Source: Nitrospirota bacterium
GTDB lineage: Bacteria; Nitrospinota_A; UBA7883; JACRGQ01
DNA length: 26,310 bases
NCBI GenBank assembly: GCA_024275955.1
Contig: JAJRYD010000006.1
Span: 1-26,310, forward strand
Direction of reading: 5' to 3'
Positions 18,025-26,097 of this stretch are shown one piece after another. The stretch's first letter is position 1, and each line of letters starts with the position of its first letter. Below the pieces are notes generated by a model, which was given only the letters and a program-made list of their open reading frames with translations, had not been told where the DNA came from and did not search any database. Made by a program: the position numbers and the translations under genes.

Positions 18025-18101
<77 letters not shown>

Positions 18102-18258
18102 TAAATTCAATAACTTAACTCATCAAGACCACCTACCAAAAGCTGTGGCCGTCACATGGCCGACACTGTTAGCTAAGTAACAGTCCCAATCTATTATTTT
18201 TATTAAGCTGGCCATCTCACTCTAAATTGAGCTTGCAGCACCCATTCTCTGCATGGAG

Positions 18259-18264
18259 TATAAT
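18259..18264 (+). promoter_or_regulatory. Candidate -10 box for hsdM
   Basis: TATAAT lies 30 bp before the hsdM start ATG 18295. The best -35-like hexamer (TTGCAG, 18233-18238) is 20 bp away, longer than ideal. The predicted start near 18271 leaves a leader of about 24 nt holding AGGGG before the ATG. Confidence 0.4.
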
Positions 18265-18294
18265 CCCCACTTAACTTTAGTATTTAGGGGTAGC

Positions 18295-19746
18295 ATGTTT
18301 GAGCAGTCATTTAAAAATATAGATAACATCCTTCACACAGACTCTGGGTGTGGAACAGAGCTCGACTATATAGAGCAAACCTCATGGATTCTCTTTTTGA
18401 AATATTTAGATGACCTTGAGGATACGAAAAAGACCGAAGCAGAGTTAGCAGGCAAAAAGTATGATCAAATTCTTAGCAAGCAATACCGTTGGGACAGTTG
18501 GGCTTGCCCAAAAGATTCAGCTGGAAAGCTAGATTACAATAAGGCCGATGATGGCGATGACCTCAAAGATTTCGTCAATCTAAAGCTTTTCCCATATCTC
18601 AAGAAATTCAGGTCAGAAGAGCCAAACACTATTGAATACAAAATCGGCGAGATCTTCCATGAGCTGAAAAACAAAATCTCTAGTGGTTACAAACTACGAG
18701 AAATTCTAAACATCGTGGACGGTATGCACTTTCGGCTAAGCAAAGAAAAGCACGAGCTCTCCGCTCTGTACGAAGACAAAATCAAGAATATGGGCAATTC
18801 TGGTAGGAACGGTGGCGAATATTACACACCACGCCCACTCATCAAAACTATAGTAAAGGTGGTCAATCCAAAGATAGGCGATAAGATTTATGATGGTGCC
18901 TGTGGCTCGGCAGGCTTTCTAGTAGAGTCGTTTGCCTACCTTACGGAAAATAAATCTAAGATTTCTTCCAGCCAGATGAAAAAGCTACAGACTAATACCT
19001 TCTACGGCAAGGAGGTTAAATCACTCGCCTACATTATCGGTATTATGAATATGATCCTGCACGATATCGAAGCACCCAACATCAGGCATATGAGTACGCT
19101 ATCAGAAAACATAAATGATATTCAGGAGAAGCATCGGTATAACATTATTCTAGCCAACCCTCCCTTTGGCGCAAAGATGGGACGGGAGATACAACAGAAC
19201 TTCCCGATAAAAACGGGAGAATCAGCATTTCTTTTCCTTCAACATTTTATAAAGATTTTAAAAGCAGGTGGGCAAGCAGGCATAGTTATAAAGAACACCT
19301 TTCTTTCTAATACAGATAACGCCTCAATAAGCTTACGAAAAATTCTGCTAGAGAGTTGCAACCTGCACACGGTGCTAGACCTCCCGGGTGGCACGTTTAC
19401 AGGTGCAGGGGTAAAAACGGTGGTACTCTTTTTCGAAAAAGGAAAAGCAACAAAGAAGGTATGGTTCTATCAGCTAAACTTAGATAGAAATCTAGGCAAA
19501 ACAAACGCTCTTAACGAAAAAGATTTAGCAGAGTTCGTAGCGTTGCAAAAAAAGAAAAAGGATTCCGAAAATTCTTGGAGTATTAATGTAGCCGATATTG
19601 ACCAAGCCACTTTTGATCTATCAGTGAAAAACCCAAACAAAAATAATGAAGTGGTGCTACGAGAACCAAAAGAAATCCTAGCAGAGATAAGAAAGCTGGA
19701 TAAAGAAAGTGATAAGGTTTTGGAGAAGGTAGGAACTTTGATTTAG
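18295..19746 (+). CDS. hsdM: Type I restriction-modification system methyltransferase subunit HsdM
   Basis: HsdM is the N6-adenine methyltransferase subunit of a Type I system and works in an M2S1 complex with HsdS. It has 483 residues. The N-terminal helical domain (FEQSFKNIDNILHTD, EQTSWILFLKYLDDLED) is followed by GGEYYTPRPLI. The AdoMet motif DGACGSAGFL lies near residue 200; the usual form is CGSGGF, so one Gly is Ala here. The catalytic NPPFGA motif lies near residue 289. The frame is open from 18253, but ATG 18295 gives the family N-terminus (MFEQSF) and has AGGGG before it; the upstream start would lie on the -10 box. The last 50 bp recur, diverged, at 20609-20658. It resembles Type IB (EcoEI/EcoAI-like) relatives. 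Confidence 0.96.
   Translation: MFEQSFKNIDNILHTDSGCGTELDYIEQTSWILFLKYLDDLEDTKKTEAELAGKKYDQILSKQYRWDSWACPKDSAGKLDYNKADDGDDLKDFVNLKLFPYLKKFRSEEPNTIEYKIGEIFHELKNKISSGYKLREILNIVDGMHFRLSKEKHELSALYEDKIKNMGNSGRNGGEYYTPRPLIKTIVKVVNPKIGDKIYDGACGSAGFLVESFAYLTENKSKISSSQMKKLQTNTFYGKEVKSLAYIIGIMNMILHDIEAPNIRHMSTLSENINDIQEKHRYNIILANPPFGAKMGREIQQNFPIKTGESAFLFLQHFIKILKAGGQAGIVIKNTFLSNTDNASISLRKILLESCNLHTVLDLPGGTFTGAGVKTVVLFFEKGKATKKVWFYQLNLDRNLGKTNALNEKDLAEFVALQKKKKDSENSWSINVADIDQATFDLSVKNPNKNNEVVLREPKEILAEIRKLDKESDKVLEKVGTLI
19684..19733 (+). repeat. Direct repeat copy 1: 3' end of hsdM
   Basis: This 50-bp segment encodes EIRKLDKESDKVLEKVG and matches 20609-20658 at 43 of 50 positions without gaps. Looser similarity continues through the ribosome-site region to the next start codon in both copies (TAGGTA...AACTATGAA here, AAGGTAGTTACTATGAA in copy 2). 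Confidence 0.9.
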
Positions 19747-19757
19747 GTATTTAAACT

Positions 19758-20597
19758 ATGAAAGATAAAACAAAGAAGCTCGTCATTTTCCAATCAAAAC
19801 AGATCCGCCGCACTTGGCATAATGACGAGTGGTATTTTTCGTTAGTCGATGTTATTGGCGCCTTAACTGACAGTGCAAATCCAACAGACTATTTAAAGAA
19901 AATCAGAAAAAGAGATGATAGTTTGAAAGAGTACCTAGGGACAAATTGTCCCCAGATAGAAATGCTCACAGAAACAGGAAAAAAGCGAAAAACATTGTCC
20001 GGCAATACAAAAGATGTTTTCCGCCTTATCCAGTCGATTCCCAGTAAAAAAGCTGAACCGTTTAAACGATGGCTGGCAGAGGTCGGCAAGGAACGGCTCG
20101 ATGAAATCGAAAATCCCGAGCTGGCGCAAGAGCGGATGAAGTCGCTCTACGAGCAAAAAGGCTACCCAAAAGATTGGATAGATAAGCGTCTGCGTGGAAT
20201 GGCAATCAGGCAAAATCTAACAGATGAGTGGCTGGAGCGGGGCATAGAAAGCCAAAAAGATTATGCGATTTTAACGGCAGAGATTTCCAAAGCTACTTTT
20301 GGCATGACACCTGCCGAGTACAAGAAATACAAAAACCTGTCCGATAAATCAAAAGTAAACCTTCGGGATAATATGACAGACTTAGAATTGATTTTTACAA
20401 TGCTGGGCGAAAAGGTAACAACAGAAATATCAAAGACTGAAAAGCCCAAAACTATGCCAGCAAATAAAAAAGCGGCAAAGCGGGGCGGTACTGTCGCAGG
20501 AAAAGCCAGACGTGATACAGAACGCGAGCTAGGAAGAAGTGTGGTCAGCACGGATAACTTTTTGGATGGCAATACAAAGAAAAAGCTTAAAAAATAA
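19758..20597 (+). CDS. Bro-N domain protein (DinD/phage-antirepressor-like) inside the hsd locus
   Basis: This 279-aa protein begins with a Bro-N-type domain (about residues 8-110: IRRTWHNDEWYFSLVDVIGA, NPTDYLKKIRKRDD, KTLSGNTKDVFRLIQSIPS, PFKRWLAEVGKERLDEI). That domain is found in phage antirepressors and virus BRO proteins and is thought to bind DNA. The middle part (GYPKDWIDKRLRGMAIR, ISKATFGMTPAEYKKYKNLS, NLRDNMTDLELIFTMLGE) is shared with DinD-like proteins. The Lys-rich tail (KKAAKRGGTVAGKARRDTE) may add DNA or RNA binding. Such genes are known in Type I loci, but their role there is unsettled; regulation or DNA-damage response is inference. It starts 11 bp after hsdM and lies between two copies of the hsdM 3' end, so it looks like an inserted cassette. 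There is a weak ribosome site (TAGGTA). Confidence 0.85.
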   Translation: MKDKTKKLVIFQSKQIRRTWHNDEWYFSLVDVIGALTDSANPTDYLKKIRKRDDSLKEYLGTNCPQIEMLTETGKKRKTLSGNTKDVFRLIQSIPSKKAEPFKRWLAEVGKERLDEIENPELAQERMKSLYEQKGYPKDWIDKRLRGMAIRQNLTDEWLERGIESQKDYAILTAEISKATFGMTPAEYKKYKNLSDKSKVNLRDNMTDLELIFTMLGEKVTTEISKTEKPKTMPANKKAAKRGGTVAGKARRDTERELGRSVVSTDNFLDGNTKKKLKK

Positions 20598-20602
20598 AAG
20601 CT

Positions 20603-20674
20603 ATGATGAAGATAAAAAAGTTGAATAAAGAGAGTGATAAGGTTTTGGAAAAGATAGGGAAAACTCTAAGGTAG
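20603..20674 (+). pseudogene. Orphan second copy of the hsdM C-terminus (23 codons)
   Basis: The short frame encodes MMKIKKLNKESDKVLEKIG and a few more residues. It matches the hsdM end (IRKLDKESDKVLEKVG) in phase. Several differences are synonymous (CTG/TTG, GAA/GAG, GAG/GAA) and the rest conservative, so it diverged as coding sequence. It is most simply the tail left from another hsdM allele after recombination. Its 3' end supplies the AAGGT ribosome site of the next gene. Confidence 0.75.
20609..20658 (+). repeat. Direct repeat copy 2 of the hsdM 3' end
   Basis: It matches 19684-19733 at 43 of 50 bases with no gaps. Together the two copies flank the Bro-N gene. Confidence 0.9.
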
Positions 20675-20679
20675 TTACT

Positions 20680-21657
20680 ATGAACGAACAACATATTGAA
20701 ATAATCCCAATACACTTCAATGTTCCAAACCATTATTTGCCATTGGTGGAATTCATTGAAACAGCCAATGATGTGGCGAATATTCTTGAGGATTTTAATT
20801 TAAAGTTTTTTGAGGGAAAGCTAAATATTCAGATTCTTGTTATGCCCTCAGAGGACGGGTCATTTCTTAAAAAGCTTGGTATTTCTGTGGTGCTAGCAAC
20901 GACTGTTTCGTGGGGCTTTATTGAAAGTGACACAGGAAAAGGATTTGTAAAAGGATTAACAGGTCACGAGCCGTCATATTGGGCTGAAAAAGCGGGCAAA
21001 AAAACTAAAGAGTTGCTAATTTTAAAAGAATCAACAACTGGTTTTTTAGAAAAGGACAACCAGACCCTAAATGATTTTGGAATACATGAAAACGATTTTC
21101 CATCAGCCTTCAAGGCACGGAATAGTTTTTATCGCATGTGTTTAGAAGATGCAGAGATAGCGGGTATTGAATTTAATGATTCCGGAGACTTTCCTATTAG
21201 CAGAGCTAATTTTGCTAACTACTTTACACCTGAAGTGGCTGTCGATGATGCTCCCCCTAAATCCGTTTATAAAATTCACCAACTTGACATTGTTGCACCT
21301 GTTATATGCGAGGGTAGTTCTGCACAATGGAGAACACGGGACGCAAAGACTTTGACACCGCTTAATTTCCACCTTAAAGATGACGAGTTTTTTCAAGGAA
21401 TTTTATCTGGCAAATACCCACTTAAAGAGACCAAGAAGAATGATGTCATTACAGTCTGCATTGAATACATAATAATGGAAGAAAATGGGGAGGAAAAAGT
21501 CTGTGAAAGAAACGCTATAAAAGTATATAAATTTAATGATGTTCTTATAGCTAAAGTTCCAGACGATATTGATTTCGAAGCGGTAATATGCCAGCAAACT
21601 CAAGAGGCGACAAAGGAAGATGATCGCCAAGTAGAGCTTCCACTGTCTGACTCTTGA
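20680..21657 (+). CDS. Unrecognised 325-aa protein between hsdM and hsdS, one likely membrane segment
   Basis: I do not recognise this family. Residues 1-60 look like a small alpha/beta domain (EIIPIHFNVPNHYLPLVEFI, then KLNIQILVMPSEDGSF). A hydrophobic stretch follows at about 66-82 (LGISVVLATTVSWGFIE), long enough for one membrane helix or a membrane-inserting hairpin. Next come the Gly-rich GKGFVKGLTGHEPSYWAEKAG and a mostly soluble part rich in Asp and Glu. The C-terminal 100 residues (KIHQLDIVAPVICEGSSAQW, YPLKETKKNDVITVCIEYII) read as a beta-rich domain, and the tail is acidic (KEDDRQVELPLSDS). ATG 20680 follows AAGGTAG at good spacing. The gene ends 13 bp before hsdS and is in the hsd transcription unit. 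A small alpha/beta domain followed by a membrane segment, inside a defence locus, suggests an accessory defence factor; that is inference. Confidence 0.75.
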   Translation: MNEQHIEIIPIHFNVPNHYLPLVEFIETANDVANILEDFNLKFFEGKLNIQILVMPSEDGSFLKKLGISVVLATTVSWGFIESDTGKGFVKGLTGHEPSYWAEKAGKKTKELLILKESTTGFLEKDNQTLNDFGIHENDFPSAFKARNSFYRMCLEDAEIAGIEFNDSGDFPISRANFANYFTPEVAVDDAPPKSVYKIHQLDIVAPVICEGSSAQWRTRDAKTLTPLNFHLKDDEFFQGILSGKYPLKETKKNDVITVCIEYIIMEENGEEKVCERNAIKVYKFNDVLIAKVPDDIDFEAVICQQTQEATKEDDRQVELPLSDS

Positions 21658-21670
21658 CCATCTTAATATT

Positions 21671-22795
21671 ATGAAGCACAACTGGCAAACAAGAAATTTT
21701 GAAGATTGTTTGAGCCAAATTGTTTATACAAAAAAGATTCCAAAGAAATATTTTTTAATTTCTGGAAAGTTTCCAATTGTTTCTCAAGAAGTTAACCTCG
21801 TTAATGGTTATTGGGACAATAAAAAAGATTTATTTAGGGCAGCATCACCTCTAATTTTATTTGGAGACCATACCAAAGTATTTAAGTATATTGATTTTGA
21901 TTTTGTGTTAGGAGCAGATGGTGTCAAGATTTTAAAACCAAAGGACATTCTTAATCCGAAGTTTTTTTACTACCAATTAACCGGATTAAGTTTAAAAGAC
22001 TTAGGGTATGCAAGGCATTTCAGGATACTAAAAGAAAAAATGATCACCTACCCATCTCTTTCCGAGCAAAGGCGGATTGTGGGGATACTTGATGAGGTTT
22101 TTGACAAGATCGAGGTAGCGAAAAAGAACGCAGAGAAAAACCTGCAAAACGCCAAAGAACTTTTTGAATCGTACTTGCAGAGTGTTTTTACAAATGGTGG
22201 GGATGATTGGGACAAGAAAACATTAAAAGAAATATCATTCGAATTTGCTCGTGGAAAATCAAAGCACCGGCCGAGAAATGATAAAAAACTTTACGGAGGA
22301 AAATATCCTTTTATTCAAACTGGTGATATAAGAAATTGTAATCATTACATAACAAAATATTCTCAAACCTATAATGAAATAGGACTTGCTCAAAGTAAAC
22401 TATGGTCAAAAGGAACGATTTGTATAACGATTGCTGCAAATATAGCTGAAACTGCAATTTTAGATTTTGATGCCTGTTTTCCCGATAGTGTTATCGGTAT
22501 TGTTGTTGACCCTAAAATTACAAATAATGATTTTGTCGAATATTTGTTGCAGTCTTTTAAGTCAATTATCAAGCAAAAAGGGAAAGGAAGTGCGCAGGAT
22601 AATATTAATTTGGCAACATTCGAACATGAATTATTTCCTTTCCCTCCTCTCAAAACCCAAAAACAAATTGTCGCTAAACTCGACAGGCTCTCCACCGCCA
22701 CTAAAAAACTCGAAAAAATCTATGAACAAAAAATCGCAGACCTAGAGGAGTTAAAAAAATCTATCCTCAACAAAGCCTTTGCCGGAGAGTTGTGA
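21671..22795 (+). CDS. hsdS: Type I restriction-modification specificity subunit HsdS
   Basis: HsdS reads the bipartite DNA target and joins HsdM and HsdR. In its 374 residues, target-recognition domain 1 covers about 1-130. A conserved helical spacer follows (LSEQRRIVGILDEVFDKIEV, then NLQNAKELFESYLQSVF). Recognition domain 2 covers about 180-320, with YPFIQTGDIRN at its start. The second helical repeat is LKTQKQIVAKLDRLS and KSILNKAFAGEL. This two-half layout is complete, so target recognition should be intact. ATG 21671 has no clear ribosome site and starts 13 bp after the preceding stop, so it may depend on coupled translation. The 252 bp after it hold a small hairpin (22832-22846, ACCCAT-CGC-ATGGGT) and no gene before hicB. 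Confidence 0.95.
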   Translation: MKHNWQTRNFEDCLSQIVYTKKIPKKYFLISGKFPIVSQEVNLVNGYWDNKKDLFRAASPLILFGDHTKVFKYIDFDFVLGADGVKILKPKDILNPKFFYYQLTGLSLKDLGYARHFRILKEKMITYPSLSEQRRIVGILDEVFDKIEVAKKNAEKNLQNAKELFESYLQSVFTNGGDDWDKKTLKEISFEFARGKSKHRPRNDKKLYGGKYPFIQTGDIRNCNHYITKYSQTYNEIGLAQSKLWSKGTICITIAANIAETAILDFDACFPDSVIGIVVDPKITNNDFVEYLLQSFKSIIKQKGKGSAQDNINLATFEHELFPFPPLKTQKQIVAKLDRLSTATKKLEKIYEQKIADLEELKKSILNKAFAGEL

Positions 22796-23047: not shown

Positions 23048-23389
23048 ATGCAATTAGTAGAGTTTAAGGCAATTTTCCCAGCCATTCTCAAGAAGAAGAA
23101 AAAGCATTGGGTAGCCCGTTGTCCTGTTTTGGATGTCTTATCGCAGGGAGAAACTAAGACAAAGGCATTGGATAACCTAAGTGAAGCTGTGCAGGTCTTT
23201 CTTACCTCCTGTTTCGAAAGAGGTGTTCTTGATGAGGTTTTGCGGGATTTAGGCTTTAAGTCTAAAGCCGAGGTCAAGCGGACGGCTCGGGTAACGCCGT
23301 TACCTAAAAGAAAATTTGAATATATTGAAGTTCCTCTCCCGCTTCTTGCCGCCTCCCACCATTCCCGCTTGTCGAATTGCCACGAATAA
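23048..23389 (+). CDS. hicB: HicB-type antitoxin
   Basis: The HicB family antitoxin fold is recognised in residues 1-55 (VEFKAIFPAILKKKKKHWVA, then SQGETKTKALDNLSEAVQVF), a partly degraded RNase-H-like domain that normally binds HicA. The 113 aa end in a basic, Pro-rich tail (RVTPLPKRKFEYIEVPLPLL), without an obvious helix-turn-helix or ribbon-helix-helix. AAGAGGT before ATG 23048 is a good ribosome site. Its last 13 bp overlap the hicA start. The antitoxin comes first, the reverse of the common hicA-hicB order, which would favour antitoxin excess. The pair lies between hsdS and hsdR. Confidence 0.85.
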   Translation: MQLVEFKAIFPAILKKKKKHWVARCPVLDVLSQGETKTKALDNLSEAVQVFLTSCFERGVLDEVLRDLGFKSKAEVKRTARVTPLPKRKFEYIEVPLPLLAASHHSRLSNCHE

Positions 23390-23607
23390 CACCAGTTCAC
23401 TGGAAAAAATTAGTCAAAATCTTTGAGGCTGTTGGGTACGAACACGATAGGACAGAGGGGAGTCACATGGCTTTTGTCAGGAAGGGTACTCCTCGACCAG
23501 TGATTATTCCTAGGTATAAGGAAATAGATGTTGACATCATCACGGGTCTAATGAAAACAGCCTGTATGAGCAGGGGGAAATATTTTGAACTTTTGAGCAA
23601 GCTTTAA
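23377..23607 (+). CDS. hicA: HicA-type toxin (mRNA interferase)
   Basis: This is a small 76-aa double-stranded-RNA-binding-fold protein of the HicA/YcfA family; HicA toxins cleave mRNA. The opening (PRITPVHWKKLVKIFEAVGY) is the usual first helix. The catalytic His is H30 in TEGSHMAFVRKG, and VIIPRYKEIDVDIITGLMK completes the fold. The start is TTG 23377, inside the end of hicB (13-bp overlap), because no ATG precedes the conserved N-terminus. A TTG start in an overlap would keep toxin output low. All key elements are present, so it should be active. Confidence 0.85.
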   Translation: MPRITPVHWKKLVKIFEAVGYEHDRTEGSHMAFVRKGTPRPVIIPRYKEIDVDIITGLMKTACMSRGKYFELLSKL

Positions 23608-23704: not shown

Positions 23705-26097
23705 ATGAATGAAGCGGAAACACGAGCAGAACTACTAGACCCAGCACTGAAGGAAGCTGGCTGGGGTATTGTGGAAGGCTCACGAATTTGCGGGAACGTA
23801 GTGCCTACAAAATTACCGAGGGAAGAATTCTATCAGGTGGTAAGCGAGCAAAACCGGAAATAGCTGACTACATTCTTGTTTATAAAAACCTCAAAATCGG
23901 CGTAATTGAAGCGAAGAGAGATGAACTAGAAGTTGGTGAAGGTGTGGCACAGGCAAAATCTTATGCTGAGAAACTTCAGATAGATTACACATATGCCACT
24001 AACGGCAAGGTAATCTATCAGATTTCTATGAAGAGTGGTGAAGAGGGTGAGATTGACTGCTTTCCTACACCAGATGAATTGTGGAATAAAACCTTTTTTG
24101 GCCAAAACGAATGGAAAGACAAGTTTTCAGATGTTCCATTTGAAAATGTAAACGGTACAAAGGGTGCTAGGTATTATCAGGAGATAGCCGTCAATAACAC
24201 CATGACTGCTATTGCTGAAGAAAAAGATCGCATGTTGTTAACTCTTGCTACTGGTACTGGTAAAACCTTCATTGCCTTTCAAATTGCTTGGAAGCTTTTT
24301 CATTCACGTTGGAACCTTAAAAGGGACGGTAAACGTAGGCCACGCATTTTGTTTTTAGCTGACAGAAACATACTTGCTGACCAAGCTTTCAACGCTTTCT
24401 CTGCTTTTGACCAAAATGCTTTAGTCCGCATTAGCCCTCATGATATTCGTAAAAAAGGTACTGTTCCTATGGGCGGGTCTGTTTTCTTTACTATCTTCCA
24501 GACCTTTATGAGTGGGCCAGATGGCACCCCTTATTTTGGTGAATACCCGCCTGATTTTTTTGATTTTGTCATTATTGATGAGTGTCATCGAGGTGGTGCT
24601 AATGATGAAAGCAACTGGCGAGACATTATGAAACATTTTTCTCCGGCTGTTCAACTTGGCTTAACTGCTACCCCAAAACGGAAAGACAACATCGACACCT
24701 ACAAATATTTTGGCGAGCCGATTTATATCTATTCTCTCAAAGAAGGTGTGAATGATGGGTTCCTAACGCCGTTTAAGGTAAAACGGATTCAAACTACGAT
24801 GGACGATTACATTTATACATCTGATGACAAGATAGTTGAGGGCGAGGTAGAGAAAGGTAAGATTTATGAGGAATCAGACTTTAACCGGATAATCGTAATC
24901 AAAGAGCGTGAAGCAAAACGAGTACGAGTGCTACTGGGCGAAATGAACCAGAAAGAAAAAACTATTATCTTTTGTACTACCCAAGACCATGCGGCGGCGG
25001 TGCGAGACTTGGTTAATCAGATGAAAGATGGCACTGACCCTAATTACTGTGTGAGGGTAACGGCCAATGACGGTGCACGAGGAGAACAGTATCTGCGTGA
25101 ATTTCAGGATAATGAAAAGATAATTCCAACAATTTTAACTACATCCTAAAAATTATCAACTGGGGTGGATGCACTAAATATCAGAAACATCGTCTTAATG
25201 CGTCCTATTAACTCTATGGTGGAGTTTAAACAGATTATAGGGCGTGGCACGAGGCTCTTTGACGGCAAAGAATACTTTACGATTTATGATTTTGTAGATG
25301 CCTATCACCATTTTAATGATCCAGAATGGGATGGCGAGCCTATTGAACCAGAGATTTGTGCTAAGTGCTCTCAAGACCCTTGCATCTGCGAGAAGAAGCC
25401 TACGGAGCCTTGCCCTATATGCGGCAAACGTCCTTGCGAGTGCGAGAAATCTACCGAGCCTTGCTCTATATGCGGTGAGGAACCTTGTGTCTGCAAGAAG
25501 AAGGGTAAACTTAAAATCAAGCTTCGTGATGGCAAAGAACGTGAAATCCAGCATATGATTTCAACTTCGTTTTGGAGCGTGGACGGTAAGCCTATGTCTG
25601 TGCAAGAGTTTATGGACAATATGTTTGGAGCGATGCCGGAGTTTTTTAAAAGTGAAGAAGAGTTGCGCAAGATTTGGTCAAATCCTATTACTAGAAAAGT
25701 TTTTTTAGAAAAGATTGCTGAGCTTGGTTTTGGCAAAGACGAATTAGAAACATTGCAAAAGATGGTTGATGCTGAGCAGAGCGATCTGTTTGATGTTCTC
25801 TCATACATTTCTTTTGAAACCCCTCCTATATCGAGAACAGAAAGAGTTGAGCAGGCAAAAGAGCAAATCCATCAAGGGCTAGACGATAAGCAGGTAGAGT
25901 TTTTGGATTTCGTTCTATCCAAATATGAAGATAAAGGTGTCGAGGAACTTGGTGAAGAGCGATTACCAGTTCTTTTAAATCTAAAATACCATGCCACTGC
26001 TGATGCTGTACGAGAACTTGGTAGCGTTGACAAAATTCGTTCTACCTTTTTTAATTTCCAAACATCTTTATATCAAGATTTTAGTGCGAATATTTAG
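23705..26097 (+). pseudogene. hsdR: Type I restriction endonuclease subunit HsdR, disrupted twice
   Basis: HsdR translocates and cleaves unmodified DNA. The ancestral protein of about 797 aa begins at ATG 23705 (MNEAETRAELLDPALKEAGW). One missing T near 23787-23789 shifts the frame at about codon 28, and the correct frame resumes with RERSAYKITEGRIL. The nuclease core ADYILVYKN...IGVIEAKR, Walker A ATGTGKT, DECH box IIDECHRGG and LTATPKR follow. An in-frame TAA at 25147-25149 interrupts TTS-KLSTGVDA where relatives have Gln (CAA); the second half holds IIGRGTRLFDG and the C-terminal domain. Residues encoded by about 25357-25500 form three tandem C-x2-C-x3-P-C-x-C units. With both lesions no restriction is expected, leaving methylation only. 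EcoEI-like (Type IB) family. Sequence error remains possible, although a nonsense change does not fit homopolymer error. Confidence 0.88.

Follow-up and report, generated by a model that had tools for sequence, protein, structure and literature searches.

The window analyzed here, a stretch of 26,310 nucleotides from a Nitrospirota bacterium, is one whole contig of a draft genome and carries, in this order, tRNA-Arg, hsdM, a Bro-N gene, a short hsdM-like remnant (hereafter the stump), orfY, hsdS, a small gene with a HicA toxin gene, and hsdR; hsdM, Bro-N, the stump, orfY, hsdS and hsdR are on the forward strand. The tRNA-Arg gene (18,025 to 18,101) ends about 150 nt before the restriction locus starts at 18,253, and tRNA genes are common sites of genomic islands. 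The hsdM gene (18,253 to 19,746) encodes a Type I DNA methylase subunit with matches to Pfam N6_Mtase (8e-63) and HsdM_N and to PADLOC MTase_I (7e-155), and its relatives are 70–83% identical. Because homologues start near residue 15, its true start may be 18,295. HsdS (21,671 to 22,795) has two Methylase_S stretches (Pfam, 1e-31) corresponding to two target recognition domains, which together with the N6-methylase domain of HsdM fits a Type I (IB-like) locus. HsdR (23,705 to 26,097) has an EcoEI-type C-terminus and lies in pieces with ResIII and EcoEI_R_C domains (open reading frames 23,705–23,863, 23,788–25,149 and 25,165–26,097). As assembled it is not intact, since its N-terminal part (23,705–23,863) is in another frame and an in-frame TAA (25,147–25,149) falls inside the segment TTS*KLSTGVDA; these lesions may mean that restriction was lost, leaving a methylation-only locus, or may be errors of the draft assembly.

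Two genes lie between hsdM and hsdS. The first (19,758 to 20,597) encodes a protein of 279 residues with a Pfam Bro-N domain (1.1e-11) that matches the PADLOC candidate PDC-S13 over its full length (5.6e-112), giving this gene embedded in a restriction operon a candidate defence function. The second, orfY (20,680 to 21,657, 325 residues), has no Pfam match and weakly resembles PADLOC PDC-S42 and PHROG 3243. The HicA gene and the small partner gene 5' of it (23,048–23,607) stand between hsdS and hsdR, so that the operon has cargo in a second slot too.

The strongest direct repeat in the 16–24 kb part of the window pairs 19,685–19,733 with 20,610–20,658 (43 of 49 bases identical, 88%, spacing 925). 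A first-pass annotation had described it as 43 of 50 identities without gaps between 19,684–19,733 and 20,609–20,658, and that count is exact because the fiftieth base is a mismatch. The run scores 37, compared with 11–12 in shuffled downstream DNA, and with 119 hsdM loci as the database its blastn E value is 4.9e-10. Beyond the 49 bases the copies continue to match in frame up to the stop codon with one codon inserted (EIRKLDKESDKVLEKVG-TLI and stop vs KIKKLNKESDKVLEKIGKTLR and stop). Similarity had been claimed to reach the following ATG in both copies; it does run in frame to the stop, but after it is weak, only ACTATGAA being common to both. The first copy is the 3' end of hsdM itself (19,684 to 19,746, EIRKLDKESDKVLEKVGTLI and stop). 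Judged from its sequence, the second (20,609 to 20,674, KIKKLNKESDKVLEKIGKTLR and stop) comes from a second copy of hsdM, of which it is the 3' stump, and is situated between Bro-N and orfY. With 20,603–20,608 included, it can be read as 23 open codons followed by a stop, and a whole-genome search with a profile of hsdM tails recovered it with an E value of 5.9e-4.

We surveyed the interval between hsdM and hsdS in 80 fetched loci with an hsdM about 70–83% identical to that of the window, a sample biased to close relatives, and in 40 further regions, nearly all from drawn genomes. This gave 113 non-redundant Type I loci with a related hsdM, 97 of them with an identifiable hsdS. The interval was empty in 36 loci, with hsdS at most 60 nt after hsdM and stop and start usually overlapping, and held at least one gene in 71 and at least two in 40. 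These counts support the view that the interval is a cargo slot, as the first-pass annotation had supposed, and provide the contrast of empty and occupied loci it had called for.

Searching all sequence 3' of hsdM with the tail profile, we found clear in-frame stumps on the operon strand in the window and in three other loci (L005, L030, and L008). Reverse-strand matches reached E values of about 3 to 8 at best. DNA comparison added stumps in L053 (46 nt, 89% identical to the L079 tail) and L010. Repetition of the hsdM tail around different cargo genes, which had been proposed as a check, is thus present in five loci besides the window, all in distant bacteria. The neighboring genes encode RhuM and DUF2130 proteins in L030 and L010, an AlbA_2/Schlafen protein and an AAA ATPase in L008, a DUF4062/HATPase protein in L005, and a PD-(D/E)XK protein and HsdS in L053. 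Stump length differs among loci. Apart from L010, which has an internal deletion, and L008, with its ragged end, each stump finishes as an hsdM C-terminus would, its stop codon lying a short way ahead of the next gene. Like the window, the named loci with stumps are metagenome assemblies, and six in-frame stumps at gene borders make mis-assembly an unlikely source. The hsdM loci of randomly drawn genomes contained no stumps, suggesting that such scars are left rarely or decay fast.

Stump-like matches just before hsdS in L063, L073, L113, and L116 were read as the C-termini of the cargo proteins themselves and left uncounted; that these C-termini (just before +860 to +960) resemble an hsdM tail may be a graft or a coincidence. 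Matches in L033 and L125 were rejected as not being tails in their context. In L053, a 109-bp direct repeat (91%) lies on both sides of the stump at +414 to +666 after hsdM, beside the PDDEXK_3 gene, and the flanked stump may belong to a repeat-bounded mobile unit. Two loci (L020 and L107, the latter from the randomly drawn genomes) have, between two cargo genes at about +1442 to +1506 after hsdM, a stub of the first ten codons of hsdS without an hsdM stump. The reverse strand, over 139 kb of intervals, gave no match to the hsdS-start motif, and we regard these stubs as a second kind of scar that also speaks for splicing.

The origin of the stump could be resolved in three loci. L030 is collinear with L023 across hsdM and RhuM (74.5% over 2460 nt, up to +950) and at the RhuM stop codon switches to collinearity with L064 (88.6% over 1347 nt). 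The L064-like part starts 105 nt inside the L064 hsdM, passes its stop codon and enters DUF2130, and L064 itself has the unspliced form, with DUF2130 3 nt after hsdM. The HsdM proteins of L030 and L064 are only 73% identical. The switch can be placed to within a few bases, and the two parents overlap there by only a short A/T-rich stretch, which gives no indication of homologous exchange at the tail. Over its last 50 nt (L030 +901 to +950), RhuM is identical to that of L023, though the blocks are 74.5% alike overall. L010 is of L011 type on the left and of L064 type on the right; its RhuM is 40% identical to that of L030 and its stump differs as well, so that it probably arose in an independent event. 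In L008 the start of hsdS (MKTNWQTVK) is directly 5' of the stump, and the sequence after the stump matches L006, a locus with the AAA gene immediately behind hsdM.

These comparisons indicate that in L030, L010, and L008 the stump is part of the downstream operon and marks a weld between two operons. Because hsdM in L030 and L010 differs throughout from that of the unspliced locus, it appears to have come along with the cargo, making the upstream partner a whole hsdM plus cargo. The first-pass annotation had taken the tail for the flank of an incoming cargo cassette, exchanged by homologous recombination at the repeat. Neither idea agrees with these loci: the tail in L030 and L010 goes with the downstream gene, as part of its L064-type operon, and at the right-hand joints an hsdM tail is entered midway, straight from the stop codon of a cargo gene or from the start of hsdS. 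A foreign hsdM allele, which it had also proposed, is borne out in L030, the best-resolved case, but the window stump is nearest to its own hsdM.

By analogy with the resolved loci we infer the same history for the window, and consider it likely that its stump is the scar of a weld joining a block of hsdM and Bro-N to the operon of orfY. The stump would then be the last ~22 codons of an hsdM formerly directly 5' of orfY, and the present hsdM with its Bro-N cargo would have been joined to the orfY operon as the upstream block. The right-hand joint would lie between the Bro-N stop codon (20,597) and 20,609, at 20,598 to 20,608, as hsdM similarity begins at 20,609/20,610, and the last codons and stop of the old hsdM would survive behind it. 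In keeping with this history, the window has the same anatomy as the resolved loci, and its stump keeps frame and stop, with five of nine codon changes synonymous. Against it stand the lack of a donor or recipient of the window operon among the loci found, the overall scarcity of stumps, and a left end of the joined block that was not located; either of the two blocks may have been the newcomer.

A likely route would be a crossover in or upstream of hsdM with a right-hand joint made with little homology, that is, homology on one side at most. In homology-facilitated illegitimate recombination (PMC3240628), one end is joined by homology and the other without, and such a process would yield joints like those of L030, L010, and L008. 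L030, the locus in which this was tested, has the expected joint with little or no homology. The likeness goes only so far, as the homologous end was not located in our loci and the events are old: no breakpoint or switch of relatives was seen inside hsdM, and the flanks upstream of hsdM are unrelated between the compared loci. A cut inside the end of the old hsdM would keep the native start region of the next gene and so leave the spliced operon expressible. L030 preserves the TAATTATGAATAA start context of L064 exactly, and this retention is a likely reason why such joints survive. The related claim that the repeat supplies the ribosome site of the next gene is thereby made plausible, on the strength of L030. 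Repeated events of this kind would pile up cargo between hsdM and hsdS.

The main alternative, to which we give a minor but real chance, is a local duplication in which the window's own hsdM gave rise to a copy of its tail 3' of Bro-N, which then decayed, for example by tandem duplication of the hsdM–Bro-N end followed by deletion. It owes its standing to the absence of a parental locus from the loci found and to the fact that, of all tails compared, the one closest to the stump is that of its own hsdM. The substitutions also allow it: the 49-base core differs at six positions, each by a transition, and read from copy 1 to copy 2 five of these run towards A/T, as decay would produce; a neutral simulation matches the observed synonymous pattern in 6.8% of runs. 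Taken alone the substitution pattern cannot arbitrate between a foreign allele and decay, and GC3 was discarded as a marker of the joint, the difference between hsdM and hsdS in the window being typical. The preserved frame and stop, the insertion of a whole codon and the five synonymous changes argue against mere decay of a copy, as do the stumps of L030, L010, and L008, which come from the downstream operon and not from the local hsdM. The substitutions thus lean towards two coding alleles, at 6.8% only; the earlier claim that copy 2 evolved as part of a real hsdM tail is compatible with them, but not proven.

We consider it improbable that Bro-N and the hsdM tail travelled as a mobile cassette, inserted by homologous exchange or as an integrative element that restores the end of the gene it enters. 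Some integrative elements do restore gene ends in this way, the cargo is flanked by a gene-end direct repeat, and empty and filled slots both occur. However, only Bro-N and no integrase lies between the window repeats, which at 88% identity are diverged and not near-identical attachment repeats; stump length varies among loci, the whole hsdM was replaced in resolved cases, L030 and L010 differing throughout hsdM from the unspliced locus, and the L008 stump is fused to an hsdS start. Most improbable of all is that the stump works as a short open reading frame or translational coupler kept for orfY expression, because, although an ATG lies 5 nt after the Bro-N stop and the stump's stop codon 5 nt before the orfY ATG, the stumps of L005, L030, and L010 have no in-frame start codon and are decayed or internally deleted, so that the peptide is not conserved.

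Of 379 genomes sampled from the phylum to which L003 belongs, 80 contain relatives of the window Bro-N protein. No window-type hsdM lay within about 1.5 kb on either side in any of 35 Bro-N loci, and in L083, L084, and L088 a relative lies next to some other methylase or restriction gene. The closest relative (80%) of its C-terminal part is found in L063 at +2056 to +2719 after hsdM, in a gene whose 5' half looks broken; it lies 3' of hsdS and not of hsdM, indicating that the Bro-N gene occupies different slots. Plasmids, phages, viral contigs, 241 relatives and the 379 genomes yielded no close relative of orfY, the only results being a weakly similar plasmid protein and a single marginal match, and no locus with orfY directly after hsdM. 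Among 23 genomes of the window's phylum no other full hsdM tail was found, and the viral contigs contained one partial hsdM relative.

Genes embedded in Type I restriction operons are known. TgvAB in VPI-2 of V. cholerae and RloF in C. jejuni are examples (PMC11411939), as is DarTG2 in enteropathogenic E. coli (PMC12255303), and embedded genes are the subject of a preprint (Payne et al., 2024, bioRxiv), here taken as cited in PMC11411939. Like Bro-N and orfY, these are accessory defence-type genes between hsd genes; their slot is between hsdS and hsdR, whereas that of the window is between hsdM and hsdS, with scars of a second operon at the joint. Neither hsdM-tail nor hsdS-start scars were described in the literature searched, a search that left out preprints and most subscription journals, and these scars would be the new part. 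We give about even chances to the broader proposition that the 3' end of hsdM serves again and again as a splice point between Type I operons of different lineages, where welding stacks defence cargo and leaves readable hsdM-tail and hsdS-start scars that record the assembly of multi-gene defence operons.

How embedded genes enter restriction operons is not well documented. The scars are direct joints that, in the resolved cases, reveal which parts of two operons were combined: the methylase gene travels with the cargo, and the start of the next gene is preserved. A systematic search for them is possible and would open the assembly of defence operons to tests by sequence. The occurrence of hsdM stumps in five distant bacteria suggests that Type I operons acquire passenger genes through the crude splicing of one operon to another.
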